In this document: one piece after another, positions 3,136-32,907 of the stretch | How the letters are laid out: each line of letters opens with the position of its first letter | How positions within the stretch are numbered: the first letter of the stretch is position 1 | Origin: Candidatus Zhuqueibacterota bacterium | GTDB taxonomy: Bacteria; Zhuqueibacterota; Zhuqueibacteria; Zhuqueibacterales; Zhuqueibacteraceae | DNA length: 40,304 nt | Assembly (NCBI GenBank): GCA_003576975.1 | Contig: QEVD01000055.1 | Coordinates: forward strand, 1-40,304 | Reading direction: 5' to 3' | Made by a program: the position numbers and the translations under genes | Notes under the pieces: model-generated | Database searches by the model: none | Told to the model about the DNA's origin: nothing | Seen by the model: the letters and a program-made list of their open reading frames with translations, nothing else

Positions 3136-3633
3136 ATGTTAAAAAAAGCAGTGCAGGATGCGATCAATGAACAAATCAAAGGCGAGTTGGAGTCGGCCTA
3201 TTTGTATCTCGCGATGTCGGCCTATTGCGAATCTGCCAGCCTGCGCGGATTCGCGCACTGGATGCGCTTGCAAAGCCAGGAAGAAATTGGGCATGCGATG
3301 AAGCTGTTCAATTTTCTCAATGATCGCGGCGGCCGCGTCATTTTGCAGGCGCTGGCGGAACCGCCCTATGAATTTCAATCGCCGCTGGATATGATGGAGC
3401 AGGCGCTTAAACACGAACGAAAAGTAACGGGCATGATCAATGCGCTGTACGAGCTTGCCATCAAGAAAAACGATTATGCCACGCAGGCGCATCTGCAGTG
3501 GTTTTTGACAGAACAAGTGGAAGAGGAAAAAACAGCGCAAGAATTAGTCGAACAATTGAAGATGCTCGGCGATCAAACCGCGGCTTTGCTGCTGCTCGAT
3601 CGTGAAGTCGGACAGCGCGGCGGCGCGAAATAA
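3136..3633 (+). CDS. ftnA: Ferritin (iron storage, ferroxidase)
   Basis: A 165-residue non-haem ferritin that oxidises Fe(II) and stores the mineral inside a 24-mer shell in the cytoplasm. ATG 3136 is chosen because AAAGGAG sits at 3123-3129 at good spacing; an in-frame extension upstream lacks this signal. The ferroxidase ligands are all visible at the same numbers as in Escherichia coli FtnA: Glu17, Tyr24, Glu50, His53, Glu94, Gln127 and Glu130. Length matches the family. No Fur box was recognised upstream. The gene stands alone, converging with the MOSC gene 18 bp downstream. Confidence 0.95.
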   Translation: MLKKAVQDAINEQIKGELESAYLYLAMSAYCESASLRGFAHWMRLQSQEEIGHAMKLFNFLNDRGGRVILQALAEPPYEFQSPLDMMEQALKHERKVTGMINALYELAIKKNDYATQAHLQWFLTEQVEEEKTAQELVEQLKMLGDQTAALLLLDREVGQRGGAK

Positions 3634-3651
3634 AAAATCAGCCGGAAATTC

Positions 3652-4095
3652 TCATAGATGCCAACTCACGGAATCGCCTACTGCAATCTTGCCGTTATCC
3701 AACACCTCGGCAAAAGCGCCGCCACCCCAATCTTTTTTCATAATCTCACGCAAGCCGGGCCAGGCTTCATCCATCCGCTCGCACGGCCTGGTCTCACCGA
3801 GAATACGCAAGCGGCATGCGCCGATTTGCAGAATGCGATTCCGGCTTTCCAACAGGCTCAGGCCGCTAACCATGAGGTTCGCGCGGCGTGCAGCAGGATC
3901 GACCGGCGCGCCGAGTTGTTGCATCATCTCCGCCCAGCGCTCGGCGGAGATGATCGTCACCTGGCGTTTGCCGCCTTGATTCGCGTTGCCTTCCAAGCCT
4001 TGGCCGGCGACTAACGTTGCGCGCGTCTGTGCATCCATCGGGCCGCGGGTGGCGCGCTTCAGCCAGATTCTCTCCAATTTGCCAATTGTTTCCAT
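3652..4095 (-). CDS. MOSC domain protein
   Basis: A 147-residue protein made of little more than one MOSC (molybdenum cofactor sulfurase C-terminal) domain. Visible features are GLEGNANQGGKRQVTII near the N-terminus and ILGETRPCERMDE. The latter carries the conserved cysteine used for molybdenum cofactor or sulfur handling. GVHG-type residues are not seen, but GNGKIAVGD-like DNGKIAVGDSV closes the domain. Stand-alone MOSC proteins are related to YiiM, which reduces N-hydroxylated bases, but the substrate here is not predictable. The start is ATG 4095, preceded by GAGGATTGAAA; a TTG two codons upstream is less likely. No molybdopterin genes are nearby. Confidence 0.85.
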   Translation of the reverse strand: METIGKLERIWLKRATRGPMDAQTRATLVAGQGLEGNANQGGKRQVTIISAERWAEMMQQLGAPVDPAARRANLMVSGLSLLESRNRILQIGACRLRILGETRPCERMDEAWPGLREIMKKDWGGGAFAEVLDNGKIAVGDSVSWHL

Positions 4096-4285
4096 TTTCA
4101 ATCCTCAAAAAATTTTGCCTGCCGTTTCAGTTTTGCAACAATGTGTCTGCTGTTGAGTTTGTTGCACGGAAAAATCACTTGCTTTTCGGAAGTCGAAGGT
4201 TTATTCTTGCGCGATCTTGAATTCAACATTCCGCGCATGGCGTGGCAATCTATCATAATTTTTGCAGGAAGACAAAGGATAAATC

Positions 4286-7228: not shown

Positions 7229-7288
7229 CCTTAAACAGGAATTAGGCGCGCAAGTTGACGGAGGAAAAGGAAAGAGGCGGGCAAACGT

Positions 7289-7708
7289 ATGCTTGAACGC
7301 GTTGTTGCTTTTGTGAATCGTTTTGTTGTCGATCCGGTTTTACAGCAGCGGATCGTCGCTGTGTTGCATTCGTTGCCCCGCGAGGTACTGCAGGATTTAT
7401 TACAAGACGAGCGCTTTCGCATGGCGGTGTACGATGTCAACGATCCGGCGAATTCGTATTTGCATATGGCGCCGCCGGGCGTGGGCGACAATGGCAGCCG
7501 CATGATTGCATGGAAATCCTCTCTCAGCCGCGCGCCGCTTGATTTTGCGAATTATGTCATTGCGCACGAATTTGCTCACGCTTATTTGCGCAACCGCGGG
7601 CGTACGGCGGAAGAAGATCCCGAAGATGCCGCCGATGCGCTTGCCCATTCATGGGGCTATGATAAACCCGAAAGCGCCAAGCGTTTTACCTGGTGGCGCC
7701 GGACGTGA
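7289..7708 (+). CDS. Small HExxH protein, putative zinc metallopeptidase
   Basis: A 139-residue soluble protein with no signal peptide or membrane segment. HEFAHAYLRN places His93, Glu94 and His97 as a zinc-binding HExxH helix. The downstream acidic stretch EEDPEDAADALAHSWGY could give the third ligand, a layout seen in several minimal metallopeptidase families. The N-terminal half (LQQRIVAVLHSLPREVLQDLL) is helical. I cannot name the family. ATG 7289 has AAAGAGG upstream. It follows the secreted protease by 60 bp on the same strand and is followed by a strong terminator, so the two may share a transcript. Peptidase activity is inference from the motif. Confidence 0.65.
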   Translation: MLERVVAFVNRFVVDPVLQQRIVAVLHSLPREVLQDLLQDERFRMAVYDVNDPANSYLHMAPPGVGDNGSRMIAWKSSLSRAPLDFANYVIAHEFAHAYLRNRGRTAEEDPEDAADALAHSWGYDKPESAKRFTWWRRT

Positions 7709-7753
7709 GTACTTGTAGTTGAGACGTGAAGTTCGAAAATCTCCTGCAAAATT

Positions 7754-7804
7754 AAAATCCCGGAAGACAAAGCTGAATGCTTTAGCTTCCGGGATTTTTT
7801 GTTT
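7754..7804 (+). terminator. Rho-independent terminator, possibly bidirectional
   Basis: Arms AATCCCGGAAG and CTTCCGGGATT enclose a loop that can itself pair (AAAGC/GCTTT). A run of T follows on the plus strand and A-rich sequence precedes the hairpin, giving T on the minus strand. It sits between the plus-strand HExxH gene and the convergent TolB-like gene, so it can serve both. Confidence 0.9.
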
Positions 7805-7880
7805 CAACGATGTTTGATGCAACGGCCAAGCCGTTGCGGGAACAATTTCTTGAAAACTGAATTTCCGAACGAACGCCCAA

Positions 7881-9092
7881 CTATTTCCAGCTCATAAAGC
7901 TCGAATCCATCCTCGCCGGATTCTCCACCCAGTCCGCAACGAACACGTTGGTGTCACGCGTAGGCGTACGCTGCGCGTTACGATTCGAGCAAAAAACGAG
8001 CTGCTTGCCGTCATACGAAAACATGGGAAAGGCGTCGAACGTGTCGGTGTGCGTGATTTGCCGCAAGCCGGTGCCGTCGATGTTGATCATGAAAATGTCG
8101 AAGTTGCGCCCGCCTTTGTCGAGTGAATGATGATTCGAGCAAAACAGCACGCGCTTGCCATCGGGATGGAAGAAGGGCGCCCAATTCGCGCCGGGAAGAT
8201 TGGTGACTTGCCGCACATTCTTACCCTCCGCGTCGGCAACAAAAACATTCAACTCCTTCGGTTCGACGAATCCCTTTGCCAATAAATCCTTGTAACTCGC
8301 CTGTTCCTCTTCTGTCGTTGGCCGGCTGGCGCGCCAGACGAGTTGTTTCGAATCCCGCGAGAAAAATGCCCCGCCGTCGTAACCCAACTCCGAGGTCAAT
8401 TGCAAATACTCTCCGGTTTGCAAATCATAACGCCAGAGTTCCAAATCACCCGACCGCGTGGAGGTGAAAACCACATAACGGCCATCCGGCGAAACCGTGG
8501 CCTCGGCATCATAGCCGGGCGCGCCGATCAAAACTTCGGGCTGTGAGCCGTCGGCCTGGGCGCGATAGATATCATAGCTTTCATAAATCGGCCAGACGTA
8601 CCGGCCTTCGCTGAACATCGCGGCTTTGGGACAATCTGCGCTGGCGGCGTGTGTTGAGGCATAAATGATCGTACCGTCCTGCAAAAAATAGCTGCACGTC
8701 GTGCGGCCTTTGCCGGTTGAGACCAAATTGTACGGCTGGCCGTCGGCGAGCGGCGCGCCGTTCGCATTCATCACAAAAATTTGATCGCAGCCCTGCGCAT
8801 TGATTTTCTCCCAATCGCTTTGAAAGATAAGCTGCTTGTCATCGAAGCTCCAATAAGCTTCGGCATTGTTGCCGCCGAACGTCAATTGCCGGATGTTGCG
8901 CAAATGAATTTCGCCGCTGTAGCGCAGTGAATCGGCCGAGGCGTGGTTCGTTTCCGCTTCCGAATTTTTTTGCGCATTCGAACAACCGGGCAAATAGAGC
9001 AGCAACAATGCGAAAAACATCATCAAAACCGGCCGTGTGTGCGCCAGCGTCGAACGGCCAAAACGTCTAAGCAAAACTTCCCTGGGGTTCAA
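7881..9092 (-). CDS. TolB-like beta-propeller lipoprotein (PD40 repeats)
   Basis: A 403-residue protein. An n-region with arginines and a hydrophobic stretch (MMFFALLLLYLPGC) lead to a clean lipobox, LPGC, so it is probably a lipoprotein of the cell envelope. The rest holds WD40-like PD40 repeats with the usual pattern of pro-x-(F/W)SPDG-x-x-(I/V)-x-F-x-S: AYWSFDDKQLIFQSD, ATVSPDGRYVVFTSTRSG, APFFHPDGKRVLFCSN and PMFSYDGKQLVFCSNRN. Such propellers bind protein partners or ligands; the function here is unknown. The start is a TTG at 9092 because GAAGGGAG sits at ideal spacing before it and no better ATG precedes the signal sequence. Transcription ends at the hairpin at 7754-7804. Confidence 0.85.
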   Translation of the reverse strand: MNPREVLLRRFGRSTLAHTRPVLMMFFALLLLYLPGCSNAQKNSEAETNHASADSLRYSGEIHLRNIRQLTFGGNNAEAYWSFDDKQLIFQSDWEKINAQGCDQIFVMNANGAPLADGQPYNLVSTGKGRTTCSYFLQDGTIIYASTHAASADCPKAAMFSEGRYVWPIYESYDIYRAQADGSQPEVLIGAPGYDAEATVSPDGRYVVFTSTRSGDLELWRYDLQTGEYLQLTSELGYDGGAFFSRDSKQLVWRASRPTTEEEQASYKDLLAKGFVEPKELNVFVADAEGKNVRQVTNLPGANWAPFFHPDGKRVLFCSNHHSLDKGGRNFDIFMINIDGTGLRQITHTDTFDAFPMFSYDGKQLVFCSNRNAQRTPTRDTNVFVADWVENPARMDSSFMSWK

Positions 9093-9153
9093 GTCAGACT
9101 CCCTTCTGAGTTTCTCTATTGATCACATTTAAATTGAACCACTGATAAAGCTC

Positions 9154-9669
9154 TCAAGCCACCTCAAGCTCATGCTCCAGCAACCGATCGTCATCAAACA
9201 AAAAACGCCCTTCGAATTTATTGCCGGCGAGCATGTGGGGAATCCAAATGCGATCGTCTTCCCACATGCGATCATACGGAATTCGATCGAGCGGCGTCCA
9301 CAACGGCGCGGCTTCATCGGTTTCCATCGGCTCGCCTTCCCAATCTGAGGCCGTGAAGACTTGCACGTGAATCGACAAGCCGTCGACGAATTGAAAGCGC
9401 AAAATGCCGCTGGGGCTCAGTCCGAGCGGCGTGATTTTCAGCTCCTCTTGAACTTCGCGCACCGCGCACGCGAGCGCGGTTTCGCCCGGATCGATGCGGC
9501 CGCCAGGGCCGTTGATTTTGCCCGCGCCCAGCCCGCGTTTTTTGTGAATGAGCAAAATATGGCTGTCCTGCATCACAAACGTCAGCGTGGCGCGTTGTTG
9601 GGGTGTCCAATTCTGCCAATCGACATCGTGGAGACGAACATATTTTTTTTCCGGGTTGGAATTCTTCAT
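9154..9669 (-). CDS. Nudix hydrolase (MutT/MTH1-like)
   Basis: A 171-residue enzyme with a Nudix box at residues 57-77: Gly57, Glu63, then REVQEE at 71-76 within [18 protein letters not shown]. The position of the usual late Gly is Lys. Nudix enzymes hydrolyse nucleoside diphosphates linked to another group. NGPGG and the C-terminal [19 protein letters not shown] pattern resemble MTH1-type 8-oxo-dGTP diphosphatases, so clean-up of oxidised nucleotides is the likeliest role. ATG 9669 is preferred because it lies 13 bp after the stop of the upstream hydrolase gene; a longer frame would overlap that gene. The two genes probably form one transcript. Confidence 0.88.
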
Positions 9670-9682
9670 TTTCGGCGCTGAG

Positions 9683-10474
9683 TTATTTCGCAAAAATCTT
9701 CTTGAAGAATTGCTGTGTGTCGGCCCAGGATTTTTTATCCGCCGCGGCATTGTAAGCCAGTGGCATATCGAATTTCTTGCCGAACGTATCCGCGTCGGGA
9801 TTGGTGAAGCTGTGCTTAGCGTCCGGGTAGTCGATGAATTGGAAATCGACTTTGGCGTCTGTCATTTCCTTTTTGAAGGCCGTGATTTGTTCGGCCGTGA
9901 CAAAAGGATCTGCTGCGCCATTGCACACCAACACGGCGGCTTTTACTTTGCCCGCTTGCGCCGGCGTTTGGGCGCCCAGGCTGCCGTGAAAACTGACCAC
10001 GCCCTTCAAATCAAACCCAAAACGCGCCATGTGCAGCACCACGCCGCCGCCAAAGCAATAACCGATCGCGGCGATCCGGGTCGTATCGGTGGTTTTGTGT
10101 TTCTTGAGAACCTCGAGCGCTGCAGTGAAACGCGCTTTTGCGCCTTCGATGTTTTGCATCACCGCGCCGGCAAACTTACCCGCCTCGTCGGGATGCGCCG
10201 CCTGTTTGCCGTCGCCAAACATATCAACCGCGAGCGCGGTGTAACCCAATTCCGCCAGCATGCGGGCGCGTTTGCGCGCATATTCATTGTGTCCCCACCA
10301 CTCATGCACCACCAACACCCCTGGACGTTTGCCTGTGACCGAATCGTCGTAAGCCAGATATCCCTTCATGGTCACGTCGCCGGCAGTGTAGGTGATTTCT
10401 TCGTGTTTCACTTCGGCAAAGGCGGAAAGTGCGGCGACCAGCAACACAACGAAGATCAAGCGAACAGCCATCAT
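9683..10474 (-). CDS. Exported dienelactone hydrolase family protein
   Basis: A 263-residue alpha/beta hydrolase. GAGGAG precedes tandem ATGs at 10474/10471. Residues 1 to about 20 form a signal peptide ([15 protein letters not shown]), so the enzyme is probably periplasmic, unlike classical cytoplasmic dienelactone hydrolases. The catalytic triad is visible: nucleophile Cys in GYCFGGG, Asp in NGAADPFV and His in [25 protein letters not shown] is the typical oxyanion-hole region, and AVDMFGDGK is also conserved. The natural substrate is unknown; DLH-like proteins often act on esters or lactones. It is upstream of the Nudix gene by 13 bp. Confidence 0.9.
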
Positions 10475-10671
10475 CGGAATTCTCCTCAAAGTTTTGGGCG
10501 GCTTTGAAGTGTTTGTTGTGACTTGAAATTTTTGCGCCAATATAGTCATCAAACCGGCAACGCGCAACCCGGAAATTTTTTTGAAAACGCCTGTGCCGGG
10601 ATTTCAGACAAACGAAGGTCTGGTATTCTGCCGGCAGTTTCCCAGTTTTTGACCGCAAAGGCCGCCGCGAT

Positions 10672-10750
10672 TGGGCAAAAGCATTGTGGGCAAAATCATT
10701 TTTGAGCATCACGATCACATCCGTTGGCCGCGTTCATCCGTTGGAGCCCG
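10672..10750 (+). repeat. Dispersed intergenic repeat, GGGCAAAA family, copy 1
   Basis: The unit reads GGGCAAAAGCATT, then GGGCAAAATCATTTTTG, then ATCCGTTGGC and TTCATCCGTTGG. The same order of words recurs imperfectly at 23212-23287 (GGGCAAAACGATT, GGGCAATATCATTCTTG, ATCCGTTGGCAG, TTCACCGTTGG). Both copies are intergenic and in the same orientation relative to the + strand. Confidence 0.65.
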
Positions 10751-10790
10751 TGCACTGCTACCTTGAATTGCAGGAGCACTCTCTTGCTTT

Positions 10791-10820
10791 GTCATTCAAA
10801 CGAATCTTGTGAGGTATTCA
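10791..10820 (+). repeat. Dispersed repeat, CATTCC/AATCTTGTGAGG family, copy 1
   Basis: CATTCAAACGAATCTTGTG followed by AGGTATTCA. Related words occur in an inverted pair at 12987-13074 and at 29311-29340, all between genes. Confidence 0.6.
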
Positions 10821-10989
10821 GTATGAGGCTTGAAACTTCACAGGAGCCCTTCTGGATGACACACACGAATGGATAAATTTTTCAAAGTAGTCGTGCACCA
10901 GTCTTTAACGCGACAGGCCATGGCAGGGAATGGGCGGAAGGGTTTTTCCGCGAGCCAATTCCTTGGAATAGTATTCCGAGTTTTAGAAG

Positions 10990-11679
10990 CTAACCCTCGC
11001 GCGATTTCCGGCAGGCAAAAATTATTGATAACGGTTTTTGTGTTTCCAGATGTTTTGGTTCATGACATTCCTCAAGCGAGAAACCGGCGTGTTGCAGCGT
11101 TGCAAGCCACGAGCTGAGCGTGCGAAAATACCAGGGCATCGGTTGCGGGAACGTTTCGCCAAATGCGGCAAAGGATTCCATGCGCCAGCCGTCCTCATAA
11201 GGCTCATCGCCGCATGCGCTCCACGGGTGAACGGTTTGAATGATCAGCGCGCCGTGTGTTGACAATGCCTGGCGCAGACTCGTCAAAAGTGAATTCAGCT
11301 CTTCACTCAAAAGTGAAAAATTGCAAACGATGAGATCGAAGGGGCCAGCAAGCCGCGCAGGATCGGCGACAATCTCGTCATAGTTTAGCACGCGAAAAGC
11401 AGCGTTGCTGTTGCGTTGCGCTTCGGCAATCAATGCGGCGCTGCCATCAACACCGGTAACCTCAACGCCGCGATTCGCCAGTTCGCGCGCGAGCCAGCCC
11501 TCGCCGCAGCCCACATCCAGCACGCGCTTCGGTTGGTGCGCCGTGATTGCCGCCCAAATCGCGGCATCTGTCGCAACACGGCGGCTTTCGATTTGCCGGC
11601 TTTGTACCACCGTGGTCCACGCCCGCGCGTTGGCCTCCCAACTGTCGGTTAATTGTTTTTCGAAATTTGGAAGCGTCAT
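10990..11679 (-). CDS. Class I SAM-dependent methyltransferase
   Basis: A 229-residue Rossmann-fold methyltransferase. Motif I is VLDVGCGEGWLAREL, followed by the acidic ribose-binding residue in VTGVDGSAALIAEA and motif IV FDLIVCNFSLL. The overall layout resembles UbiG/Methyltransf_11 enzymes, but the substrate cannot be told. The tail HPWSACGDEPYEDGWRMES and MPWYFRTLSSW is shared, as I recall, with small-molecule methyltransferases of this broad group. ATG 11679 lies four bases after the T-run of the susD terminator, so there is no room for a Shine-Dalgarno site. Expression from read-through, or from a start further in, is possible, although the conserved N-terminal helix (WEANARAW) supports this start. 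Confidence 0.88.
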   Translation of the reverse strand: MTLPNFEKQLTDSWEANARAWTTVVQSRQIESRRVATDAAIWAAITAHQPKRVLDVGCGEGWLARELANRGVEVTGVDGSAALIAEAQRNSNAAFRVLNYDEIVADPARLAGPFDLIVCNFSLLSEELNSLLTSLRQALSTHGALIIQTVHPWSACGDEPYEDGWRMESFAAFGETFPQPMPWYFRTLSSWLATLQHAGFSLEECHEPKHLETQKPLSIIFACRKSREG

Positions 11680-11683
11680 GAGG

Positions 11684-11717
11684 AAAAAACCGGGGCATGG
11701 CGCAATACCATGCCCCG
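11684..11717 (-). terminator. Rho-independent terminator of the susC-susD locus
   Basis: On the minus strand CGGGGCATGG, a 7-base loop and CCATGCCCCG form a perfect 10-bp stem, followed by GGTTTTTT. It starts 10 bases after the inferred original susD stop (11728-11730), which supports that stop as the ancestral gene end. Confidence 0.92.
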
Positions 11718-11727
11718 TGAGTTGTGG

Positions 11728-12950
11728 TTAGATCGTCGGGTCCGGCGGTGTGTTGGGGTTGTTCAAGCGTTCTTGATCGGGATACGGATAGAAGTTGCGA
11801 TTGCGCTCGGCATTGGCATCGAGCGCTTTCGGTTACCGGGCCGCTGTAGATCGGCAAGCCCGCAGCAACGCCGAAGGGATCCGTGGTTTTGGTGCGCACG
11901 GCATTGATTTCCACCACGGCCTCTGCCAACCGGCTCTGCCGCACCAACGCTTCGGCTTTGATGAGGTTCATCTCGCCGGGCAGATAAACGGGAATCGTTT
12001 TTGTCGGGGTATCAAAGAAACCCTTGAGATCATCAATGGGCAGATTGTACGGCGAAGGATTGGTTCTGTCCGCGGGCGTGAGGAAAAAAGCCACGCGCCC
12101 GTCGCCGGACTCAATTAACGCGCTGCCGAAATTGTCGCGCGCCGCATAGTTCCGGTTGAGGAACACGAGCTGATAAATCGGGTTGGGATTGCGATCATCG
12201 TACGTGAACACGGAGGTAGAGGCCAGATTGACGCTTGCAGCAGCGTCGAATGCTTGTTGATACCGCCCAACCATCAAATTGTAGCGTGCGCGATAGGCAT
12301 TGATGGTGTTCACCAGATCGAAATTCCTGCCCAGAATTTGTGTGGTGAATTCGTTGCTCGCGGGCGTTGTGGCCAGTAATTGCGCAGCCGCGTCGAGCAA
12401 ACTGATTGCGCTCGCCAAAACCTCCGCACGCGGCTGAAAGATGGATTTGCCGTTTTCGTCAAGCTCGATGGGCGCTTGCTCGAACGCCTGCGCGAGAACG
12501 CCCATGGACATGGCTTTGTAAAGATGCGCCAAGGCAATGATGCCGCTGCGCGTGCCGGGATCGAGCGTCACGTTCGGCGCGCTGTTGATCAAATCATTCG
12601 CCATGCTGATCACGCGGATGGGCCGCGACCACAGCGCCAGCACGTTACCGTTGCCGGTGGTGACTTGGTCGCCGCCGTCCTGCAATTCCAACAAATTGGT
12701 GAAGGTGGAATTGATCGCGATTTCGCCGCTGGTCACGCCGGGCGTCAAAATCATTGCTTCCACCACGCCGATGGCATAATTTTGCTGAATGCCCGCCGCC
12801 AGCGCGATCACGCCTTCGCGCGTGGTTAACACTTGATCTTCCGAAGCGCTGTTGGGATTGGTGACATCCAGCGAACAGGCTGTTATCACCAATAGCAGCA
12901 GGCTCGCCAATGCCAGCGTGAGTTTTTGTCTATCAAGAAATTTGTTCATG
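11728..12950 (-). pseudogene. RagB/SusD-like outer-membrane lipoprotein, internally deleted and frameshifted
   Basis: SusD-like lipoproteins cap SusC porins at the cell surface and bind glycans or peptides. The start is ATG 12950 behind GGAG. A signal peptide and lipobox end at Cys25 or so (LLVITAC). The protein then reads clearly as RagB/SusD: an N-terminal TPR-like region with LYKAMSMGVLAQAFEQAP and a later YLPGEMNLIKAEALVRQ. After GLPIYSGPVTES, about residue 375, the frame breaks near 11815-11829. In another frame the end reads ERNRNFYPYPDQERLNNPN, and it stops at 11728-11730. SusD proteins normally have an RR-x-EL-x-x-EG-x-R-x-x-D segment of some 40-60 residues between these parts, and it is missing. 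In the first frame translation runs on to 11462 through the methyltransferase gene. This is either a pseudogene or an assembly gap. Confidence 0.85.
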
Positions 12951-12986
12951 AATTCATTCTCCAAATTGTGCGATTTCCTTTCATGC

Positions 12987-13074
12987 TCATTCCTCGAGAA
13001 TCTTGTCAGGCTTTTGATGCAACAGTGACCTCGACTGCTTTCACGATACCTCACAAGATTCCTACGGAATGACA
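12987..13074. repeat. Inverted pair of CATTCC/AATCTTGTGAGG repeats between susC and susD
   Basis: The left arm is TCATTCC...AGAATCTTGTCAGG at 12987-13010. The right arm, read on the minus strand, is TCATTCC...GAATCTTGTGAGGTAT from 13074. The two arms pair imperfectly over about 25 bases around a loop of about 30 bases. This can form a long hairpin in the susC-susD spacer and could act as an mRNA stabiliser or attenuator. Related single copies occur at 10791 and 29311. Confidence 0.7.
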
Positions 13075-13102
13075 GGAAGGGTGGGTAAGTCCAAATCTGA
13101 AG

Positions 13103-14038
13103 TTAGTAATTCAACGTCACACCAAAAGAGAATGAGCGCGGAATGGGAACTTCGACGAAATCAAAACCGCGCACGCCCGTGCTCTGGCCGGCGGTGTTGA
13201 TCTCGGGATCGTAGCCGGTATAATCATCAATCGAAAACAGATTGCGGCCAATCAAACTCAAACGCATACTGCGCAGGCCGAGCATCTTGGGATGCAAATC
13301 ATACGAAACCGCAAGCTCGCGCAATTTGATGAACGAGGCGTCTTCAACCCAGGCGCCCAAAATGGAGAAGAGTGCGGTGTTGTAACCGGCAGGCACCTGG
13401 CCTTCCAACTCGCGTTGATAATCCACCAAATTGCCGTATAGCGGCCCGCGCGCGCCGACGCGCCGCGTGAAGTTGAAAACATCAAAGCCCTGCACCGCAT
13501 CCAACTGGGCGCGCACGGAGAGATTACGCCCGATCTCCACTTCATTGATCCACGACGCGGTGAAATCAGGATTGGGATCGCCGGTGACGTCGCGAATCGT
13601 GCCGCCGGTGGGCTGGCCATTCGCACCGCGGCTGCGCTGTTCCGGTTGCGGCAGGCCGGCAGGCGTCAACAGCAAACTGCCGTCGGCATTGCGCGCATAA
13701 AACGTGGTATAAAACACGCCCAGCGGCTGGCCATTGACGGCAGCAACCTGGCCGAACGAATCCGCGAGCAACAGAATGTCGCCTTCGATGCCGTTGACTT
13801 CGTTGCGATTGCGGGCGAACGTCACGCTCGTGTTCCAGCGCACGTTGCGCGTTTGCAGCGGGATTGCCCGCAGCATCACTTCGAGGCCTTTGTTATCCAG
13901 CGTACCCACATTTTCCAAACGGCTCAAATAGCCGGTGGAAGGCGCGAGCGAGCGGAACAGCAGCAGATCGGTCACATGCTGGTTGTAATAAGAAAACTCC
14001 ACCGCGATTTTATCGCGCCACAAGCTGAACAAATCTTC
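13103..14038 (-). pseudogene. SusC/RagA-like TonB-dependent receptor, C-terminal fragment
   Basis: About 312 residues of the last part of a SusC-type beta-barrel. Typical segments are FSYYNQHVTDLLLFRSL, STGYLSRLENVGTLDNKGLE, NTSVTFARNRNEV, DPNPDFTASW, FIKLRELAVSYDL and SLIGRNLFSIDDYTGYDPE. It ends in FGVTLNY, with the terminal aromatic residue needed for barrel assembly. Homology begins around 14038; upstream the frame continues into AT-rich DNA (to 14308) with no resemblance to SusC. The plug and early barrel are not attached: the N-terminal fragment lies at 15030-15797 and some 400-500 residues of the middle are absent. The gene cannot make a working receptor as read. Confidence 0.88.
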
Positions 14039-14346
14039 TTGACTAATGAGATTTATTTTTTTAATAATCAGGTAATATGAAATTTTATTACCTTCAATGA
14101 TCTCTAAGATGCTGGTTCCTGAGAATTGAAAAATTTCATTCACAATAGGATCCAAAATCGCTCGCCACCGAAATACTGCAGAAGTATTTTGGATCTTGTC
14201 AATATTATTAAATTGATTCCAAATTAACACAGCGATGATGCCTTCAAATATTCTGCTGATTTTAATAGCAAAAGGCCGAACCTCATCGAAATGATAATTT
14301 GGAAACACTCTACTCGTCTTCTCACTACAAGTAATTGGAGGCCATC

Positions 14347-14925
14347 ATGCGAGCAGCTAAATTCAAGGATTATAATATTGTTGCCGCAGTCGTCTTATTG
14401 CTGGCTTTGTTTGTTATGTCGTGTAATTTATCGAAGCCAACAGAAGATTCTGATATTCAATCGCCATTGTCGCATAGCCCATCAGATCGTGGAGCCATTG
14501 CTAAAGCCATTCCCCTAGGACGACAAACAGCTAGTGGAAGCCAAAGCATGGCAGGTAGTATTCATGCATGGGCATCTGTTATTTCATATGGTGAAGGATT
14601 CAAAGAAGATTATATAGATGTACAAACTTCTTCAAACGCCACTAATATAAAGCTTAAAGTGCATGGCGTTTACCGATACAATTCATCATGTGATCCTCTC
14701 GGAAGTGCTCTTACCTATGTGATGGTAGACAATCAACCTCCTTTGTATTTGAATAATACCAATTGGATAAATCTTCCGAGTGGATCGCATACCTTTCGAG
14801 TATATGCATCAATCACAACTAGCATAGGTGTAGACCAATGCAGTTCTTGTGAGCCACCGCCGTTCGAGTGTAATGGAGAATCTGGCATAGAATTAACTGT
14901 AATATGGGATAGTGCGCAGGAATAG
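14347..14925 (+). CDS. Putative lipoprotein of unknown function within the AT-rich insert
   Basis: A 192-residue protein. TTGGAGG lies just upstream of ATG 14347, so an upstream in-frame TTG is not needed. The N-terminus has Lys/Arg residues, a hydrophobic run (NIVAAVVLLLALFVMSC) and a lipobox with Cys at about residue 26. A low-complexity Ser-rich linker follows. The C-terminal domain is beta-rich, with VYRYNSSCDPLGSALTYVMVD, LPSGSHTFRVYASITTS and a cysteine cluster DQCSSCEPPPFEC. This suggests an Ig-like exported domain with disulfides. I do not recognise a family. Codon use is AT-rich, unlike all neighbours, which points to a different origin. It has its own terminator. Confidence 0.75.
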   Translation: MRAAKFKDYNIVAAVVLLLALFVMSCNLSKPTEDSDIQSPLSHSPSDRGAIAKAIPLGRQTASGSQSMAGSIHAWASVISYGEGFKEDYIDVQTSSNATNIKLKVHGVYRYNSSCDPLGSALTYVMVDNQPPLYLNNTNWINLPSGSHTFRVYASITTSIGVDQCSSCEPPPFECNGESGIELTVIWDSAQE

Positions 14926-14973
14926 CATTTTTAATTTTAGCTGCTAAATTGTGGACGTTCACTTTTTATTTCT

Positions 14974-15010
14974 AATGGTATGAAGGAAGCTTCATACCAT
15001 TTTTATTTTA
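14974..15010 (+). terminator. Rho-independent terminator of the insert lipoprotein gene
   Basis: A perfect 12-bp stem, AATGGTATGAAG / CTTCATACCATT, with loop GAAG, followed by TTTTATTTTA. It lies 48 bp after the lipoprotein stop codon. Confidence 0.93.
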
Positions 15011-15029
15011 CGGACCATTTAATTCATAC

Positions 15030-15797
15030 TTATGAACAAAACAAAATGCGTTTCGTGAAGATTTGCACCACGCCGTTGTTGGCGCGCGAGCCGTAAATTG
15101 CAGCCGCGGCCGCGCCCTTGATCACTTCGATGCGCTCGATGTCTTGCGGATTGATATCGACCAAACGATTTTGGCGATAGCCGCCCAGGTCGATCAGTTG
15201 CGGTGAGTCGTTGCTCACGATCACGCCGTCTACGATGTACAGGGGATCGGCGTTGCCCAGCACCGTGCTTGCCCCGCGCAACCGCACGGTGATGCCGCCT
15301 GCCGGGTTGCCGGAGTTTTGTTGAATCTGTGCGCCTGCGATTTTTCCCGTGAGCGCCGCATCAATGGCGGTCGCGCCGGTCGATTCCATTTCGCGAATGT
15401 TTACCGTTGAAATGGCATTGCCGAGTTGCCGTTTTGAAGTGGCGACCGAAGTACCGGTGACGATGACTTCGTCCATCTGCAAGGCATCGACCGTGAGATT
15501 GAAACTGACATCAATAATGCCGCTGGTTTGCGTTACGCTTTGACGGGCCGATTTGTAGCCGAGCAGGCGCGCTTCGAGCACGGTTTCTGCGCCCGGCGAG
15601 GGCACCAGAATGCTGAAATTGCCATTGGCATCCGTCGCCGCGCCGCGCGCAGTGCCAACCACAAGAACATTTGCGCCCACCAGCGGTTCGCCGCGATCGT
15701 CCGCCACATGACCTTGAATAGTCAATTGGCCAAAGGCGAGCACCGGCAGGGCGAGCAGCGCGAGTGTTTGCAACAAACAACGTCGCACAGTAAACAT
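15030..15797 (-). pseudogene. SusC/RagA-like TonB-dependent receptor, N-terminal fragment
   Basis: A 255-codon fragment starting at ATG 15797 with GGGAGGAAG just upstream. The signal peptide spans residues 1 to about 23. A CarboxypepD_reg-like domain follows (about 24-105, TIQGHVADDRGEPLVGANV then GTARGAATDANGNFSI). The TonB plug follows (DEVIVTGTSVATSKRQLGNA, ALTGKIAGAQIQQNSGNP, VRLRGASTVLGNADPLYIVDG, IERIEVIKGAAAAAIYGSRA), split here into short words. After NGVVQIFTKR the sequence leaves the family and stops five codons later in AT-rich DNA. The normal continuation, a 22-strand barrel, is found only as a distant C-terminal piece at 13103-14038. The promoter and translation signals are intact, so a plug-only product might still be made. 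Confidence 0.9.
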
Positions 15798-15913
15798 GAA
15801 CTTCCTCCCGAACAAGTTTTGGTGAGTAGCAGTTGAGTGAAAATACTCTGGGATCACCGCAGGCTGTTAAGAGTGTTACTCCTCCTTTCTCCCGTTTAAA
15901 TAAATTGCCCACA

Positions 15914-15941
15914 AGGATAATAAAAATTTCTGCTTTGTCAA
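15914..15941 (-). promoter_or_regulatory. Sigma-70 type promoter for the susC-like gene
   Basis: On the minus strand TTGACA (15941-15936) and TATCCT (15919-15914) are separated by 16 bases of A/T-rich spacer. Transcription would begin near 15907 and give a leader of about 110 nt before ATG 15797. Confidence 0.6.
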
Positions 15942-16417
15942 GATCATTCTCTTTGAACGGCGGAATGGCATTGCTTGTGAACGGCAGTGATTCATCTCAA
16001 TCAGGATCGACGATTAAATGACTTGCCCAATCTCCAACCGCGAATTGAGGCGAATCATTGCGAATTAAAAAGCATTAGTGGCCATTCGCGTTGATTAGCG
16101 GATTAAAGAAAATGAGTCAGGTATTTAAATCGCAATCATCAGCAGCAAGCTCAACCCGCCAAAATGCGGCACGCCTTGCAACCCATCATTTCGCGCTGAC
16201 TGAATCAAAATGCACAAGAATGCATGCTGTTCCTATCAGCACCTCTTGAGTGACAGAATATTTTCGAGATGACTGCACGGTGTTGAAGTAAAGTCGCAAG
16301 GATCACAGTTTTGCATTTTTTGTTACCCCGCGTTAGCAGAACGGTGGAATTGAGTGTTTATTTGTTCACAAGTTTTTGAAATTATTCAATAAATGTGCGC
16401 TATTTTCGAAAAAAAAC
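15942..16417. other. Divergent intergenic region between susC and the division cluster
   Basis: No coding frame is supported. It contains a CGCGAAT-type inverted repeat at 16036-16101 and AT-rich DNA leading into the mraZ promoter at its right end. Nothing else was recognised. Confidence 0.6.
16036..16101. repeat. CGCGAAT-type imperfect inverted repeat, copy 1
   Basis: AACCGCGAATTGAGGCGAAT on the left, ATTCGCGTTGATTAGCGG on the right. The same words occur at 29475-29542 in a better-paired form. Both copies are intergenic. Confidence 0.55.
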
Positions 16418-16446
16418 TTGACTTTAATAGGATTCTAAGTTATCAT
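16418..16446 (+). promoter_or_regulatory. Sigma-70 type promoter of the dcw cluster (mraZ promoter)
   Basis: TTGACT at 16418-16423 and TATCAT at 16441-16446 with a 17-base spacer, preceded by an A-tract. The predicted start near 16453 falls directly before the MraZ repeats. Confidence 0.82.
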
Positions 16447-16454
16447 TGGGCGAA

Positions 16455-16500
16455 AGTGGATAAAAGTAGGGAATAGTGGGGATTAATGGAAGGTAGGGGT
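16455..16500 (+). promoter_or_regulatory. MraZ operator: five repeats at exact 10-bp spacing
   Basis: AGTGGA, AGTAGG, AGTGGG, AATGGA and AGGGGT begin at 16455, 16465, 16475, 16485 and 16495. MraZ is known to bind TGGGN-like direct repeats with about 10-bp periodicity upstream of its own gene, and this array fits that. The last unit also looks like the Shine-Dalgarno sequence of mraZ. Confidence 0.85.
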
Positions 16501-16508
16501 ACGAAGCC

Positions 16509-16964
16509 GTGGTTGAACTCTCTGAAATCATTCCAAAATTTTATGGCCGCTTCAAGCAGAGCTTAGACGATAAGGGCCGCGCCGCCATTCCGGCCAAGAT
16601 TCGCGAAATCGTCGATCTGCGCGACATGAAGTCGCTGATGTTGCGGCTGATGGAAACGCCGAATGCCTGTTTCATTCGTGCGTATCCCGCCTCTTATTTC
16701 CGCGAGAAGATCCTGCCAATGGCTTCGAATATCGACGAGGAAAGTGAGCTTGGTATCTACCAGATGCAGGCGATCCTGGCATCCTGCCATCAGGTACGAT
16801 TGGATAATCAAGGTCGCATCAACATTCCGACGGAGTTATTGCAAGCCGCAAAAATCACCAAAGAAATTCGCTACGTCGGGATGGGCGACTTTTTTGATAT
16901 GTGGGACGTCGCAAACTACGAACAGTTTTTAGAAGCAGGACGCAGCGGCGCGCTCAAGGGTTAG
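16509..16964 (+). CDS. mraZ: Transcriptional regulator MraZ
   Basis: A 151-residue DNA-binding protein that regulates the division and cell-wall cluster it heads. It contains two SpoVT-AbrB half-domains: LDDKGRAAIPAKIREIV near residues 18-34 and LDNQGRINIPTELLQAA near residues 98-114. MraZ forms a ring that binds phased repeats, which are present just upstream. The start is GTG 16509; no ATG lies in frame before the first conserved motif, and AGGGGT precedes it by 8 bases. The N-terminus is about ten residues longer than the usual M-F-x-G-x-Y start. It ends 3 bp before rsmH. Confidence 0.95.
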   Translation: MVELSEIIPKFYGRFKQSLDDKGRAAIPAKIREIVDLRDMKSLMLRLMETPNACFIRAYPASYFREKILPMASNIDEESELGIYQMQAILASCHQVRLDNQGRINIPTELLQAAKITKEIRYVGMGDFFDMWDVANYEQFLEAGRSGALKG

Positions 16965-16967
16965 CCT

Positions 16968-17912
16968 GTGTCAACGCCCAAGCTACAACAAGGCGACTAT
17001 CACGTTCCCGTTTTAGTGCGCGAGGTGATCGCATTCCTGCTCACCGAAAAAAGCGTGACGCTGGTAGACGCCACGGTGGGCGACGGCGGCCATAGCCTGG
17101 CGCTCTTGGAAGCGAATCCGCACATACGCGTGATCGGCCTGGATGTTGATCCGCAATCCCTGGCCGTAGCGCAACAACGTTTGGCAAAATTCAAAAATCG
17201 ATTCTTATTCGTGAATGGCAACTTCCGGCATATGACCAGTCTCCTCACAGCAAACGGCATCACGTCGGTTGATGGTGTGCTGGCCGATTTGGGCATGAGT
17301 TCACGCCAAATCGACAGGCCGGAACGTGGCTTCAGTTATCTCGATGAGGGCCCGCTCGATTTACGCCTGAACCCCTCCCTCCCCCAAACTGCAGCGGAGC
17401 TGATGGCGGCTCTAGAACAAGACGAACTGGTGCGTCTTCTGCGGGACTATGGCGAAGAAAGGCAAGCCCGGCCCATCGCGCGAGCCATCGTGCAACAACG
17501 ACGGCGGCACCCGATCCGGACGACGACTGATCTTCGCTTGATTATCGAAGGCGTCGTGCGCGGCCCTCATCGGATTAAATCCCTGGCGCGCGTGTTTCAA
17601 GCGCTGCGCATCGCGGTGAACGAAGAACTGCAAGCCCTGCAGGAGTTATTGCAGCAAGCCTTTACGCTGCTCGCCTCCGGCGGGCGCATGGCGCTCATCA
17701 GCTATCATTCGCTGGAAGATCGCATTGTGAAAGAATTCTTTCGCGCGCAAGCCTTGCCTTGCACCTGCCCGCCGGAATTCCCGGTGTGTGTGTGCGGCAA
17801 ACAAAGCCAGGCGGTGATTTTGACGCCGAAGCCCGTTACGCCGGGCCCGGAGGAATTGGCTGCGAATCGGCGCAGTCGCAGCGCCAAGCTGCGTGTGTTG
17901 CAGAAACGATGA
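16968..17912 (+). CDS. rsmH: 16S rRNA (cytosine(1402)-N(4))-methyltransferase RsmH
   Basis: A 314-residue SAM-dependent methyltransferase (formerly MraW) that modifies C1402 in the decoding centre of 16S rRNA. HVPVLVREVIAFL opens the protein. VDATVGDGGHSLALLE is the SAM-binding motif, and DGVLADLGMSSRQID, with RGFSYLDEGPLDLR and ISYHSLEDRIVKEFF, completes the signature. Length is normal. The start is GTG 16968. The gene lies 3 bp after mraZ and overlaps ftsL by four bases (ATGA), indicating translational coupling. Confidence 0.97.
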   Translation: MSTPKLQQGDYHVPVLVREVIAFLLTEKSVTLVDATVGDGGHSLALLEANPHIRVIGLDVDPQSLAVAQQRLAKFKNRFLFVNGNFRHMTSLLTANGITSVDGVLADLGMSSRQIDRPERGFSYLDEGPLDLRLNPSLPQTAAELMAALEQDELVRLLRDYGEERQARPIARAIVQQRRRHPIRTTTDLRLIIEGVVRGPHRIKSLARVFQALRIAVNEELQALQELLQQAFTLLASGGRMALISYHSLEDRIVKEFFRAQALPCTCPPEFPVCVCGKQSQAVILTPKPVTPGPEELAANRRSRSAKLRVLQKR

Positions 17913-18319
17913 AAATGGCGAAACCCAAAGCCGGCGTGCGCCGCCCGGCGGCGCCGGTGAAGCGCAAGGCAGCGCCTCGCGCGCAAGTCATCAATGCCAG
18001 CGGCAAAGTTCGCCTGAAGCTGCGCCAGCCCAAGGCTGCGAGTCCCGGGATGGGTAAAGTCTGGGCAGTTTTGCTGGCGCCGTTTTTTGTCCTCTTGATT
18101 TTCGGTTTGTTGTTGATTTGGGAGCGGGTGGCGGTGGAGCGCCTGGCCAAAACAGTTGCACAGTTGGAAGCTCAAAAAATACAGCTTGTCGAGCAAAACA
18201 CGCGGCTGGTCGTGCAAGCGGAGCAGCTTGGCGGTTATGGCCGCATTTCAAAAATTGCACGCGAGCGCTTGCACATGATCCGAGTGGCCACCAAGCTGAT
18301 CGTGGTCTCACAGGAATGA
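17909..18319 (+). CDS. ftsL: Cell division protein FtsL
   Basis: A 136-residue bitopic membrane protein. The start is ATG 17909 in an ATGA overlap with the rsmH stop. The N-terminal about 50 residues are basic and cytoplasmic, one membrane helix follows (WAVLLAPFFVLLIFGLLLIW, about 52-71), and then a leucine-zipper coiled coil (VERLAKTVAQLEAQ, KIQLVEQNTRLVVQAEQL). The tail RISKIARERLHMIR is the usual FtsL/DivIC-like end. FtsL forms a complex with FtsB/DivIC and FtsQ and activates FtsW-FtsI at the septum. Sequence conservation is low in this family, so the call rests on topology and position between rsmH and ftsI. It overlaps ftsI by four bases. Confidence 0.88.
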   Translation: MKMAKPKAGVRRPAAPVKRKAAPRAQVINASGKVRLKLRQPKAASPGMGKVWAVLLAPFFVLLIFGLLLIWERVAVERLAKTVAQLEAQKIQLVEQNTRLVVQAEQLGGYGRISKIARERLHMIRVATKLIVVSQE

Positions 18320-20523
18320 AGAAGCAATTTCATACAGCCTTGTCGCGGCGGGACTCGCCGTCGAAACGGAAAACCAAAACGGCTGACGCAACACAGCCGA
18401 ATCGCAGCGTTTTTATTGAAGCATTTTTTTTACTCTTCGCTCTGATTTTGATCAGCCGCTTGTTGTATATCCAACTGTTGCAACGCGGGAAATATCAAAA
18501 CGCCGCAAAAAGCCAGCATTATTCCGCCATTCCTTTGGAAGCGCAACGCGGCCTCATTTATGATCGCAATCACAATATGCTCGCTTTGAACGATGCCTGT
18601 ATCTCGGTCGGTGTGGATCTGCGCCAAGTTAAAGATCGCCGCGGTTTGGCGCACAAGCTGGCGCGCATTTTGGGCGAATCCTCCGCGGCATTGTTGGAGC
18701 GCATGCGCACGGACCGCCCCTTTGTCTGGCTCAAGCGCCGGGTTGACGCCGAGCTGGCAAAGAAAATTGAGGCGAGCCATTTGCCCGGCATTCGCATCGA
18801 GAAAGATATGCGCCGGCGTTATCCTCATAAAGAAATCGGGGCGCACGTGATCGGCTACACCGATGTGGATAATCGCGGCATCTCCGGCATTGAACTGACC
18901 AGCGACTCCTTGCTGGCGGGGCAGAATGGCCGCAAGTTTCTGCAAAAAGATGCGATCGGGAATTCCTTTCCCAATCTCGCCATGCCCGATGTGCCGCCGG
19001 TTCACGGCCAACACATTTTTTTGACGCTCGACTACGTCATTCAGACGATTGCCACAGAAGAGTTGCGCTCGGCCATGGATTTTTTTGATGCCAGCCGGGG
19101 CACCGTCGTCGTCACCAATCCGCAAACCGGCGAAATTTTGGCGATGGTGAATGAACCGGGTTTCGACCCCAATAACCCCGGCGCCTACTCAACCGCAACG
19201 CGGCGCAATCGCGCAGCCGCCGATCAATTTGAGCCAGGCTCCACATTCAAGCTCATCACCTTTGCCGCGGTTTTGCAGGAAAACGTGCGCCGCCCGGACG
19301 ACGTCATTTTTTGCGAAAATGGCGCGTGGAAGTTTGCCGATAAAGTCATCACCGATCACGGCGAGCGCTACGGCAATCTCAGTGTGGCGGAGGTATTGGC
19401 GAAATCGAGCAATATCGGCACAACCAAACTGGCGCGCTTGGCGCGCAAAGAAAAAATTTATCGCTATGCGCGCGATTTCGGTTTTGGCATGCCGCCGCGC
19501 GCGGGCATCGAAGGCGAAGCGAATGGCACGCTCAAAATGCCCGGCGAATGGTCCGGTTATACGATTGCTGCAATGGCCATGGGGTATGAAGTGTCCGTAA
19601 CCGCCGTGCAAATGGCAATGGCTTACGGCGCCGTCGCCAACGGCGGTCTGTTGCTGCAGCCGAAAATTCTCATGGCGCGCAGCGACGCGCACGGCCGCGT
19701 CGAACGCTTCGACGAGCCGCAGGTTGTGCGGCGCGTTTTGACCAAAGACGTGGCGGCAGAGCTGGCGCACATGTTCGAAGGCGTGGTGAAAAACGGCACC
19801 GGCAAGAATGCCGCCCTGGAGGGCGTTCGCATCGCCGGTAAAACCGGCACCGCGCACCGCGCGCTGCAAAATGCCCGCGGCTATTCGCGCAGCGATTATA
19901 TTTCTTCGTTTGTGGGATTTTTCCCGGCGGAACAGCCGCGCTATTTGATCTATGTCATGCTCGAAAATCCCCGCAGAGATCATTGGGGCGCTTCCGTCGC
20001 AGCGCCCACCTTCCGGCAGATTGCGCAGCGCATTCTAGGCGCAGAGCCGTCGTTCACCGAACGGCCGGGAATGCCTCATGAAAATTTCACGGAAAACTAC
20101 AGCGAGACAATTATGGACACTCGAAAAATTGTGTTGCCCGATCTCACCAGCCGCCATCGCAACGTCGGTGAAGAAATTCTCAAGAGCCTCGAGCTCAAAC
20201 CGATTTGGGATGGCGAAGGCGATTTTATTCTGAATCAAATGCCGCCGCCCGGTTCGACCGTGTTGCGCAACTCGCCTGTCACGTTGCAGCTTTTTGAAAT
20301 TGGTCAAATGGCGAAGAAAGCGCGCATGCCCAATCTCGTGGGACTGTCGCTGCGCCAGGCGTTGCGGCAGCTTTCCGTTGCAAATGTGGAGGCCCGCGTC
20401 GTGGGCAGCGGCTCCGTGGTGCAACAATATCCGCCGCCGGGCACACCCATCAGCTCGGGCGTGCGCTGCGAGTTGCGCTGCCGCTCGGAAGTCGTAGTCG
20501 CGCAGGAAGCGGTGTTAAATTAG
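18316..20523 (+). CDS. ftsI: Septal peptidoglycan transpeptidase FtsI (PBP3-like) with two PASTA domains
   Basis: A 735-residue class B penicillin-binding protein that cross-links septal peptidoglycan in the periplasm. ATG 18316 overlaps the ftsL stop (ATGA); a longer frame upstream only reads through ftsL. One membrane helix lies near residues 33-53 (AFFLLFALILISRLLYIQLL). RGLIYDRNHNMLA begins the dimerisation domain. The transpeptidase motifs are Ser309 in GSTFK, Ser364-Ser-Asn366 in KSSN and Lys509-Thr-Gly in GKTGTA. Two PASTA domains end the protein, starting at LPDLTSRHRNVGEEIL and MPNLVGLSLRQALRQL. Two PASTA domains on FtsI are more usual in Gram-positive PBP2x/SpoVD but are also seen in FCB relatives. 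murE, which normally follows, is missing. Confidence 0.96.
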   Translation: MKKQFHTALSRRDSPSKRKTKTADATQPNRSVFIEAFFLLFALILISRLLYIQLLQRGKYQNAAKSQHYSAIPLEAQRGLIYDRNHNMLALNDACISVGVDLRQVKDRRGLAHKLARILGESSAALLERMRTDRPFVWLKRRVDAELAKKIEASHLPGIRIEKDMRRRYPHKEIGAHVIGYTDVDNRGISGIELTSDSLLAGQNGRKFLQKDAIGNSFPNLAMPDVPPVHGQHIFLTLDYVIQTIATEELRSAMDFFDASRGTVVVTNPQTGEILAMVNEPGFDPNNPGAYSTATRRNRAAADQFEPGSTFKLITFAAVLQENVRRPDDVIFCENGAWKFADKVITDHGERYGNLSVAEVLAKSSNIGTTKLARLARKEKIYRYARDFGFGMPPRAGIEGEANGTLKMPGEWSGYTIAAMAMGYEVSVTAVQMAMAYGAVANGGLLLQPKILMARSDAHGRVERFDEPQVVRRVLTKDVAAELAHMFEGVVKNGTGKNAALEGVRIAGKTGTAHRALQNARGYSRSDYISSFVGFFPAEQPRYLIYVMLENPRRDHWGASVAAPTFRQIAQRILGAEPSFTERPGMPHENFTENYSETIMDTRKIVLPDLTSRHRNVGEEILKSLELKPIWDGEGDFILNQMPPPGSTVLRNSPVTLQLFEIGQMAKKARMPNLVGLSLRQALRQLSVANVEARVVGSGSVVQQYPPPGTPISSGVRCELRCRSEVVVAQEAVLN

Positions 20524-20569: not shown

Positions 20570-21952
20570 ATGCCGATCATTCTAACATTGGGAGAAGTGT
20601 TGCGCGCCTGCGGCGAACAAGTGCGCTTTGCGGGCGATAAAAGCATGTTGCGGACGCGTCCCGCAGCCTGCTCCATTGATTCGCGCACATGTCAGGGCGG
20701 CGATTTGTTCTTTGCACTCGCCGGCGACAAATTCGATGGACACGAATTCCTGCCGCAGGTGTTCGAAAAACAAGCACTGGCGGCGGTGGTCAGTGCTCGT
20801 TGGTATGAGCAACATCCGAAACAGCGCAATAATCTCATCATTGTTGGCGATGTGCTGCAGGCACTGCAAAATCTCGGCAGCGCCATTCGCCGGCGCTGGG
20901 GCAAGCCTGTGCTTGCGCTCACCGGCAGCAATGGCAAAACCACCACCAAAGAAATGGTGGCTGCGGTTTTGGCGCAAAAGAAAGTCGTGCACAAAACCGT
21001 GGGCAATCTCAACAATCATATCGGCGTGCCGCTCACCTTATCGCAACTTGCATTCGCCCACGACATGGCTGTCGTCGAAATGGGGGCGAATCACTTTGGC
21101 GAGATTGCCCGCCTCTGCGAAATCGCCGTGCCGCAGTATGGCTTGATCACCAACGTCGGACGCGCGCACCTGGAATTTTTCGGAGATGCTGCGGGCGTGG
21201 CGCGGGCCAAGGGAGAGCTGTTTCATTATCTGCACGAGCACGAGGGCATCGCATTCTTCAATGCCGATGATCCGTATTTGCCCGCCGTGCTTCCGGCCGG
21301 CTTGAAAGCAGTGACGTACGGATTGCAAAAGCCGGCGCAGATTCACGGCACGATCAAACAAACAGATGGCGGCGGACATGCCACGCTGTCCTGGCGCAAC
21401 ACCGAAATTCGCATAAACGTGCCGGGCGCGCACAATGCCGGTAATGCGCTCGCCGCGGTGGCGATCGGCGACTTCTTTGGCATCGCGCCGGAGGCGATTC
21501 GGGCCGGTATTGAAGCCTGCGCCAGCGTTTCGCAGCGCATGCAAATCGTGCGCAAAAGCGGCATGGTCATCATCAACGATGCCTACAACGCCAATCCCGA
21601 GTCCATGAAAATCGCGTTGGGATTTTTGGCGCAGCAGCCGCTGGCCGCAAGCGCCCGGCGCGTCGCGATTCTGGGCGACATGCTCGAATTGGGCGCGAGC
21701 GCTGAAGCCGCGCACCGTGAAATCGGAGAATTCATCGCCACCCTGCCGCTGCAAGCGGTTTTTGCCTACGGCCCGCAAACGAAACATCTCGTTGACGCCG
21801 TGGGGCAGAATTGTTGGGCCGTACATTTTATGAAAAAGCAGAATCTGTTTGCTGAGGTCAATCGTTCGGTACGCCCCGGCGACGTGCTGCTGCTCAAAGG
21901 CAGCCGCGGCATGGCCATGGAGGAAGTCTTGGAAAAATTGCCAGAGGTTTAA
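20570..21952 (+). CDS. murF: UDP-N-acetylmuramoyl-tripeptide--D-alanyl-D-alanine ligase MurF
   Basis: A 460-residue cytoplasmic ATP-dependent ligase that adds D-Ala-D-Ala to UDP-MurNAc-tripeptide, the last soluble step of peptidoglycan precursor synthesis. The substrate-binding N-domain has SIDSRTCQGGDLFFAL. The ATP loop is LTGSNGKTTTKEMV. VGNLNNHIGVPLTL and VVEMGANHFGEI are MurF-specific, and NDAYNANPESMK with LGDMLELG marks the C-terminal domain. These exclude MurE. It starts 46 bp after ftsI; no strong ribosome binding site is visible. It is the only Mur ligase in the cluster. Confidence 0.96.
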   Translation: MPIILTLGEVLRACGEQVRFAGDKSMLRTRPAACSIDSRTCQGGDLFFALAGDKFDGHEFLPQVFEKQALAAVVSARWYEQHPKQRNNLIIVGDVLQALQNLGSAIRRRWGKPVLALTGSNGKTTTKEMVAAVLAQKKVVHKTVGNLNNHIGVPLTLSQLAFAHDMAVVEMGANHFGEIARLCEIAVPQYGLITNVGRAHLEFFGDAAGVARAKGELFHYLHEHEGIAFFNADDPYLPAVLPAGLKAVTYGLQKPAQIHGTIKQTDGGGHATLSWRNTEIRINVPGAHNAGNALAAVAIGDFFGIAPEAIRAGIEACASVSQRMQIVRKSGMVIINDAYNANPESMKIALGFLAQQPLAASARRVAILGDMLELGASAEAAHREIGEFIATLPLQAVFAYGPQTKHLVDAVGQNCWAVHFMKKQNLFAEVNRSVRPGDVLLLKGSRGMAMEEVLEKLPEV

Positions 21953-22030
21953 TCCTGTTCTTTCAAACCCGCTCATGCTCCTGTCCGGCCTGCAAACGCG
22001 CACCGGAGCGGGAGAGAAAAGGAGCCGTCA

Positions 22031-32843: not shown

Positions 32844-32907
32844 AGTTTCCGGCGCGCGGCTCCGCAAAAGCAACGCTTCGGGTGTATGTTGCTAATCAGT
32901 TTTGTCA

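Follow-up and report, generated by a model that had tools for sequence, protein, structure and literature searches.

Very probable recent loss of a SusC-type receptor through foreign-DNA replacement, common to two compared genomes of one Candidatus Zhuqueibacterota species

A susC gene of Candidatus Zhuqueibacterota has very probably been lost recently by replacement of its middle with apparently foreign DNA, and this loss is common to both genomes of the species that we compared. The gene lies in a stretch of 40,304 nucleotides (contig QEVD01000055.1 of assembly GCA_003576975.1, positions 1 to 40,304), which is referred to at its full length as the window. The window's own genome is G000; G081 is labelled as the same species, G001 and G002 belong to the same genus, and G018 is a class-level relative of the window's bacterium. 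Overall, we consider it highly likely that susC decayed through replacement by foreign DNA, that the broken allele was then transferred between strains, and that decay went further in susD. Read in this way, the locus captures an uncultured bacterium in the course of losing a nutrient receptor, with susC broken, the allele probably shared, and the decay of susD begun. The features on which the argument rests are the following:

15048 to 15797, minus strand: susC 5' fragment, 250 codons, ending at TKR
14030 to 15047, no strand: AT-rich replacement segment (the insert) of 1018 bp, substituting for 1284 bp of susC and delimited by alignment to G001 and G002
13103 to 14029, minus strand: susC 3' fragment, 308 codons and a stop, the end of the beta-barrel
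14347 to 14925, plus strand: orphan lipoprotein-like gene, an open reading frame of 192 aa
14974 to 15001, plus strand: terminator-like hairpin 3' of the lipoprotein gene, with 12 pairs, a 4-nt loop and a T-rich tail
14036 to 14308, minus strand: open stretch of the insert that shares its reading frame with the susC 3' fragment
13097 to 15542, no strand: near-identical tract between G000 and G081, spanning the insert
11728 to 12949, minus strand: susD, its frame shifted close to the 3' end through loss of 95 bp at about 11823/11824
10990 to 11679, minus strand: methyltransferase gene (Pfam Methyltransf_23), which follows susD downstream as it does in G001 and G002

Alignment of the two fragments to intact relatives confirmed that a SusC-like gene is split by an AT-rich segment, as a first-pass annotation had proposed from the letters alone. 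The break point in this alignment to G001 and G002 falls after the R codon of TKR and before TTCAGC (FS). The annotation had the 5' fragment ending at TKR near 15047, which agrees with the 15048 found here, and the 3' part resuming near 14038, about 10 bases away from position 14029, where it resumes at FSLWRD; its estimate of about 540 remaining residues was of the right order, the actual count being 250 + 308 = 558 codons. The 5' fragment consists of a signal peptide region recognized by eye, followed by a carboxypeptidase-regulatory-like domain (PF13715) and a plug domain (PF07715). The NCBIfam model for SusC/RagA TonB-linked outer membrane proteins, TIGR04056, is matched at positions 2-205 by the 5' fragment and at positions 667-980 of 981 by the 3' fragment, each scoring under the whole-protein cut-off, and model positions 206-666 are missing. 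The locus thus resembles this family in that both of its fragments match the model, and differs from it as a broken, non-working member without the central part. Instead of one continuous frame of about 1000 residues with a plug and a full barrel, as in a functional SusC/RagA protein, the window holds 250 and 308 codons with 1018 bp between them. Since about 60% of the barrel part of TIGR04056 (positions 206-666 of 981) is gone, the SusC receptor of this locus is expected to be dead.

The size of the loss can be read from the intact orthologues. Both G001 and G002 carry susC as a single unbroken frame (996 aa and 1030 aa respectively, counted from one stop to the next), and their identity is 84% in the 5' fragment and 87-88% in the 3' fragment. 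The G001 protein has a CTD-like domain, a plug and a barrel, and matches the solved SusC homologue 8aa4 over residues 10-987 of 987; its Pfam barrel domain (residues 398-755) lies mostly inside the part that the window has lost. Between the parts of G001 that match the two fragments are 1284 bp, i.e., 428 codons of native susC that are missing from the window, where 1018 bp stand in their place; the earlier description of the event as a replacement rather than a simple insertion is therefore correct. A 427-aa query made from the SusC middle of G001 found no match in G000 or G081, but did so in each of the four genomes used as controls (G001, G002, G003 and G018). We also considered a second susC copy elsewhere in the genome and rejected it: the middle is absent, and the 32 other matches of the 5' fragment in its own genome are all at most 42% identical.

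A split gene of this kind resembles a chimeric assembly, a question that could be checked against the second genome of the same species. Contig C119 of G081 is colinear with positions 2737-19148 of the window at 97-98% identity, and holds the insert, with one base different (at 15015), together with both junctions. Its parts other than the insert differ from the window by 1.4-5.1%, and the contig outside the near-identical tract by about 2.5% by mismatch counts. If an unrelated 1-kb piece had been joined between two susC fragments during assembly, the abrupt change of composition at the insert would find an explanation, and the window comes from an assembly of 776 contigs with a listed completeness of 94% and contamination of 2% (for G081, the listed values are 100% and 5%). 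However, for this to hold, two assemblies would each have had to join the same piece falsely at an identical pair of bases, in one case within a colinear contig that is otherwise diverged; further, neither the window nor the G081 contig contains any Ns, and the susC middle is on no other contig of G000 or G081. We therefore regard the chimera, which the first-pass annotation had left as an option, as quite improbable. More generally, misassembly as the cause of the split susC is unlikely because the insert and both junctions are shared by a colinear contig with diverged surroundings, with the qualification that the two genomes are less independent if they come from one sample.

The insert differs from the surrounding gene in composition. 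Its GC content is 36.9%, and that of the two susC fragments is 58.7% and 57.3% (54.3% for the window); the third-position GC is 0.67-0.71 in the susC fragments vs. 0.30 in the inserted gene. As the first reading had described, this AT-rich DNA of about 1 kb (1018 bp) contains a lipoprotein gene on the strand opposite to susC, located at 14347-14925. By eye, the gene has a signal peptide, a lipobox-like MSC, and GGAGG ahead of its ATG. A structural model predicted from the single sequence was poor (mean pLDDT 50.9), and we therefore claim no fold. On the minus strand, all 105 codons from 14344 to 14030 (within 14030-14346) are open and run into the susC 3' fragment, an extent reached in 6 of 2000 shuffles; this open frame may be a remnant of the 5' part of a torn donor gene. 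Between 13900 and 16500, we counted 3 terminator-like sites (shuffle mean 3.0) and 5 promoter-like matches (shuffle mean 4.7). As these counts are no higher than in shuffled sequence, the promoter and terminator signals around the insert are plausible but not proven. The claim of the first-pass annotation that the promoter, ribosome-binding site and terminator of the locus are all intact thus holds only in part: the ribosome-binding site looks good by eye, the promoter-like matches do not exceed the shuffles, and the terminator scan covered 13900-16500.

We searched for a possible donor among bacterial relatives, phages and plasmids. The lipoprotein gene is present in 2 of the 82 genomes of the phylum, namely G000 and G081, and no relative beyond this species was found in searches of 60 and 82 genomes; a match in G020 (E 0.005, with a stop inside) was too weak to be counted as a relative, and neither was a match in G049 to the second insert frame (E 0.009, with a stop). 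Protein searches with the lipoprotein found no match in IMG/VR, phages, plasmids, PHROGs or PDB sequences, no NCBIfam family, and in Pfam just one match far under the cut-off (Y_Y_Y, E 0.062). Similarly, the minus-strand frame of the insert matched no Pfam, NCBIfam or PHROGs family, phages, plasmids and viral contigs contained nothing homologous to it, a DNA search with the whole insert found no match in phages and plasmids, and no Rfam family was matched at gathering score between 10400 and 16600. The lipoprotein gene accordingly shows no kinship to phage genes of the kind expected for a phage-derived single-gene insertion (moron), an unsampled phage still being a possible source. From its composition and its absence from relatives, the insert appears to be foreign DNA.

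How this DNA came to replace part of susC can be narrowed by what the junctions contain. Pfam, NCBIfam and PHROGs showed no transposase family in the two frames of the insert, and neither a terminal inverted repeat at the exact insert ends nor a target-site duplication was found. A transposon or insertion sequence was therefore rejected (no transposase family, no terminal repeats, and 1284 bp of target lost). From the lack of a transposase family, of a terminal inverted repeat at the ends and of a target-site duplication, we infer that incoming DNA would have replaced the segment by illegitimate or homology-assisted recombination. The proposed course is a single recent inactivation, in which 1284 bp of barrel-coding susC would have been swapped for 1018 bp of apparently foreign AT-rich DNA; the broken allele would afterwards have been transferred between strains by ordinary homologous recombination. 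In the window's strain the operon has decayed further through the 95-bp frameshifting deletion in susD.

Near the junctions is a 9-bp inverted match (CAAATCTTC at 14030-14038 and GAAGATTTG at 15057-15065), which was noticed post hoc and has a length that 43 of 5000 letter-shuffled versions of the two ends (about 40 bp each) also reach; an 8-bp direct match is also present alongside it. In addition, a 15-nt imperfect inverted repeat (87%) flanks the lipoprotein gene inside the insert, at 14352-14366 and 14931-14945. Both inverted features could be expected if the receptor were switchable, with a susC locus that inverts or exchanges cassettes and the segment as one of its states. Yet one arm of the 9-bp match sits within native susC, 9 bp from the break, so that the match does not mark the boundary; no SusC segment was recognized in the insert on either strand; an alternative middle is nowhere in G000 or G081; and these two genomes are in the same state. 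Alternative segments between inverted repeats, the hallmark of a phase-variable invertible locus, were thus not found, and we hold a switchable receptor to be extremely improbable. The earlier proposals of a phase-variable receptor locus and of a swapped binding module fall with these results, the former because the genome has no alternative middle and the inverted match lies off the boundary, the latter because no Pfam or NCBIfam family scores above cut-off in the insert and the SusC middle is nowhere in G000 or G081. We likewise rejected a receptor-module swap as a candidate, as no SusC segment is recognized in the insert.

The preferred reading, replacement by foreign DNA, has parallels in known systems. 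Homology-facilitated illegitimate recombination commonly deletes recipient DNA. In PMC3240628, it is described as the joining of incoming DNA by homology at one end and illegitimately at the other, a process that could yield the replacement of a native segment and that we propose here by inference only. For E. coli, S. aureus and S. pyogenes, PMC2884548 describes dimorphic variable segments, in which unrelated sequence has taken over the position of a native segment; it stresses segments of 20-500 bp and states that small variable loci are particularly abundant in membrane-protein genes. The locus studied here is similar in that, between flanks that are homologous, an unrelated segment stands where the native one would be, with the native state in G001 and G002 and the replaced state in G000 and G081. 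Compared with the segments emphasized in PMC2884548, the one described here is different in being 1018 bp long, carrying its own gene, and belonging to a candidate phylum. Our literature searches found no paper on KSB1 together with SusC and TonB-dependent, and none on a SusC/SusD pseudogene frameshift.

The loss of susC is recent, because both fragments are free of stop codons and their dN/dS values are like those between intact genes: 0.086-0.103 for the window's fragments against G001 and G002, compared with 0.084-0.085 between G001 and G002. There is no clear sign of relaxed constraint in the fragments. The view of the first-pass annotation that the event is recent is thus backed by the lack of stops and the purifying dN/dS, and gene decay, one of the options it had listed, is supported, with susD damaged too in the window's strain.

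Sequence comparison between G000 and G081 also bears on how the broken allele came to be shared. The near-identical tract at 13097-15542 differs at 1 of 2446 positions, the same base at 15015, and from this we conclude that the broken allele probably has a single origin and spread from strain to strain through homologous recombination. Outside the tract, the first 85 codons of susC (15543-15797) show a dS of 0.23 at a dN/dS of 0.12 between G000 and G081, which suggests that the divergence in these codons arose while the gene still worked. For the G000-G081 dN/dS, 14 other genes in the window served for comparison, two of which had no value because of gaps and two of which had no differences. 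Over the 37,105 aligned bases, the divergence between the two genomes is patchy, with identical runs of 0.8-1.9 kb and up to 99 differences in a 500-bp window (21501-22000). Such strong patchiness across the window suggests that recombination between strains is frequent.

The same data could be read in a more adaptive way, in which the insert is a mobile lipoprotein module of benefit to its host and the receptor-loss allele is sweeping the species, e.g., by blocking or removing a phage receptor. In its full form, this reading holds that the orphan lipoprotein replaced the barrel, spreads via homologous recombination in the flanks, and is advantageous together with the receptor loss. It would fit the presence of just one gene, preceded by a ribosome-binding site (by eye) and followed by a terminator-like hairpin, the identity of the lipoprotein gene in the two strains (0 differences between G000 and G081), and a tract that includes the longest identical run of the 37 kb compared. 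If true, it would link the loss of a receptor to the gain of a new surface protein. However, near-identical patches of about 1-2 kb, nearly equal in length to the tract, exist in the absence of any insert (e.g., 31981-34169, where two runs of 1013 and 1076 bp are free of differences), and the tract is therefore not evidence of selection for the insert. Moreover, searches of phages, plasmids and viral contigs yielded no relative of the lipoprotein, and the comparison comprises two genomes only. We consider the adaptive module with a sweeping allele very improbable, and give equally little credence to the full form.

Under the preferred reading of receptor loss followed by inter-strain transfer, the remainder of the operon shows the next step. 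The 95-bp deletion in susD is present in the window and, according to the alignments, absent from G081, G001 and G002, and the susD frame is uninterrupted in G081. The window therefore does not have the intact downstream susD partner of a functional SusC/RagA system. As G081 shares the broken susC yet keeps a whole susD frame, the order of decay, as far as the sequences indicate it, is susC first and susD later. Further downstream, the methyltransferase gene (10990-11679) is far more diverged than susC and susD, with a dN of 0.49 to G001 and a dN/dS of 0.27.

Compared with G001 and G002, the locus has also been rearranged. In those two genomes, a ferritin gene is followed by susC, susD, the methyltransferase gene and a MOSC gene. 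The window has its ferritin block next to the MOSC block, one alignment ending at 3622 and the next starting at 3661; its susC-susD-methyltransferase unit is moved and inverted, lying at 10990-15820 upstream of mraZ, an arrangement that is common to G081. Further synteny breaks are found at about 8934-9161, 10453-10990, and 15820-16401. A dispersed element of about 130-140 bp is present at 16002-16144 and 29437-29576, the copy at 29.4 kb being strongly palindromic, and has at least dozens of matches on other contigs of G081; an apparently distinct dispersed repeat lies at about 10749-10889.
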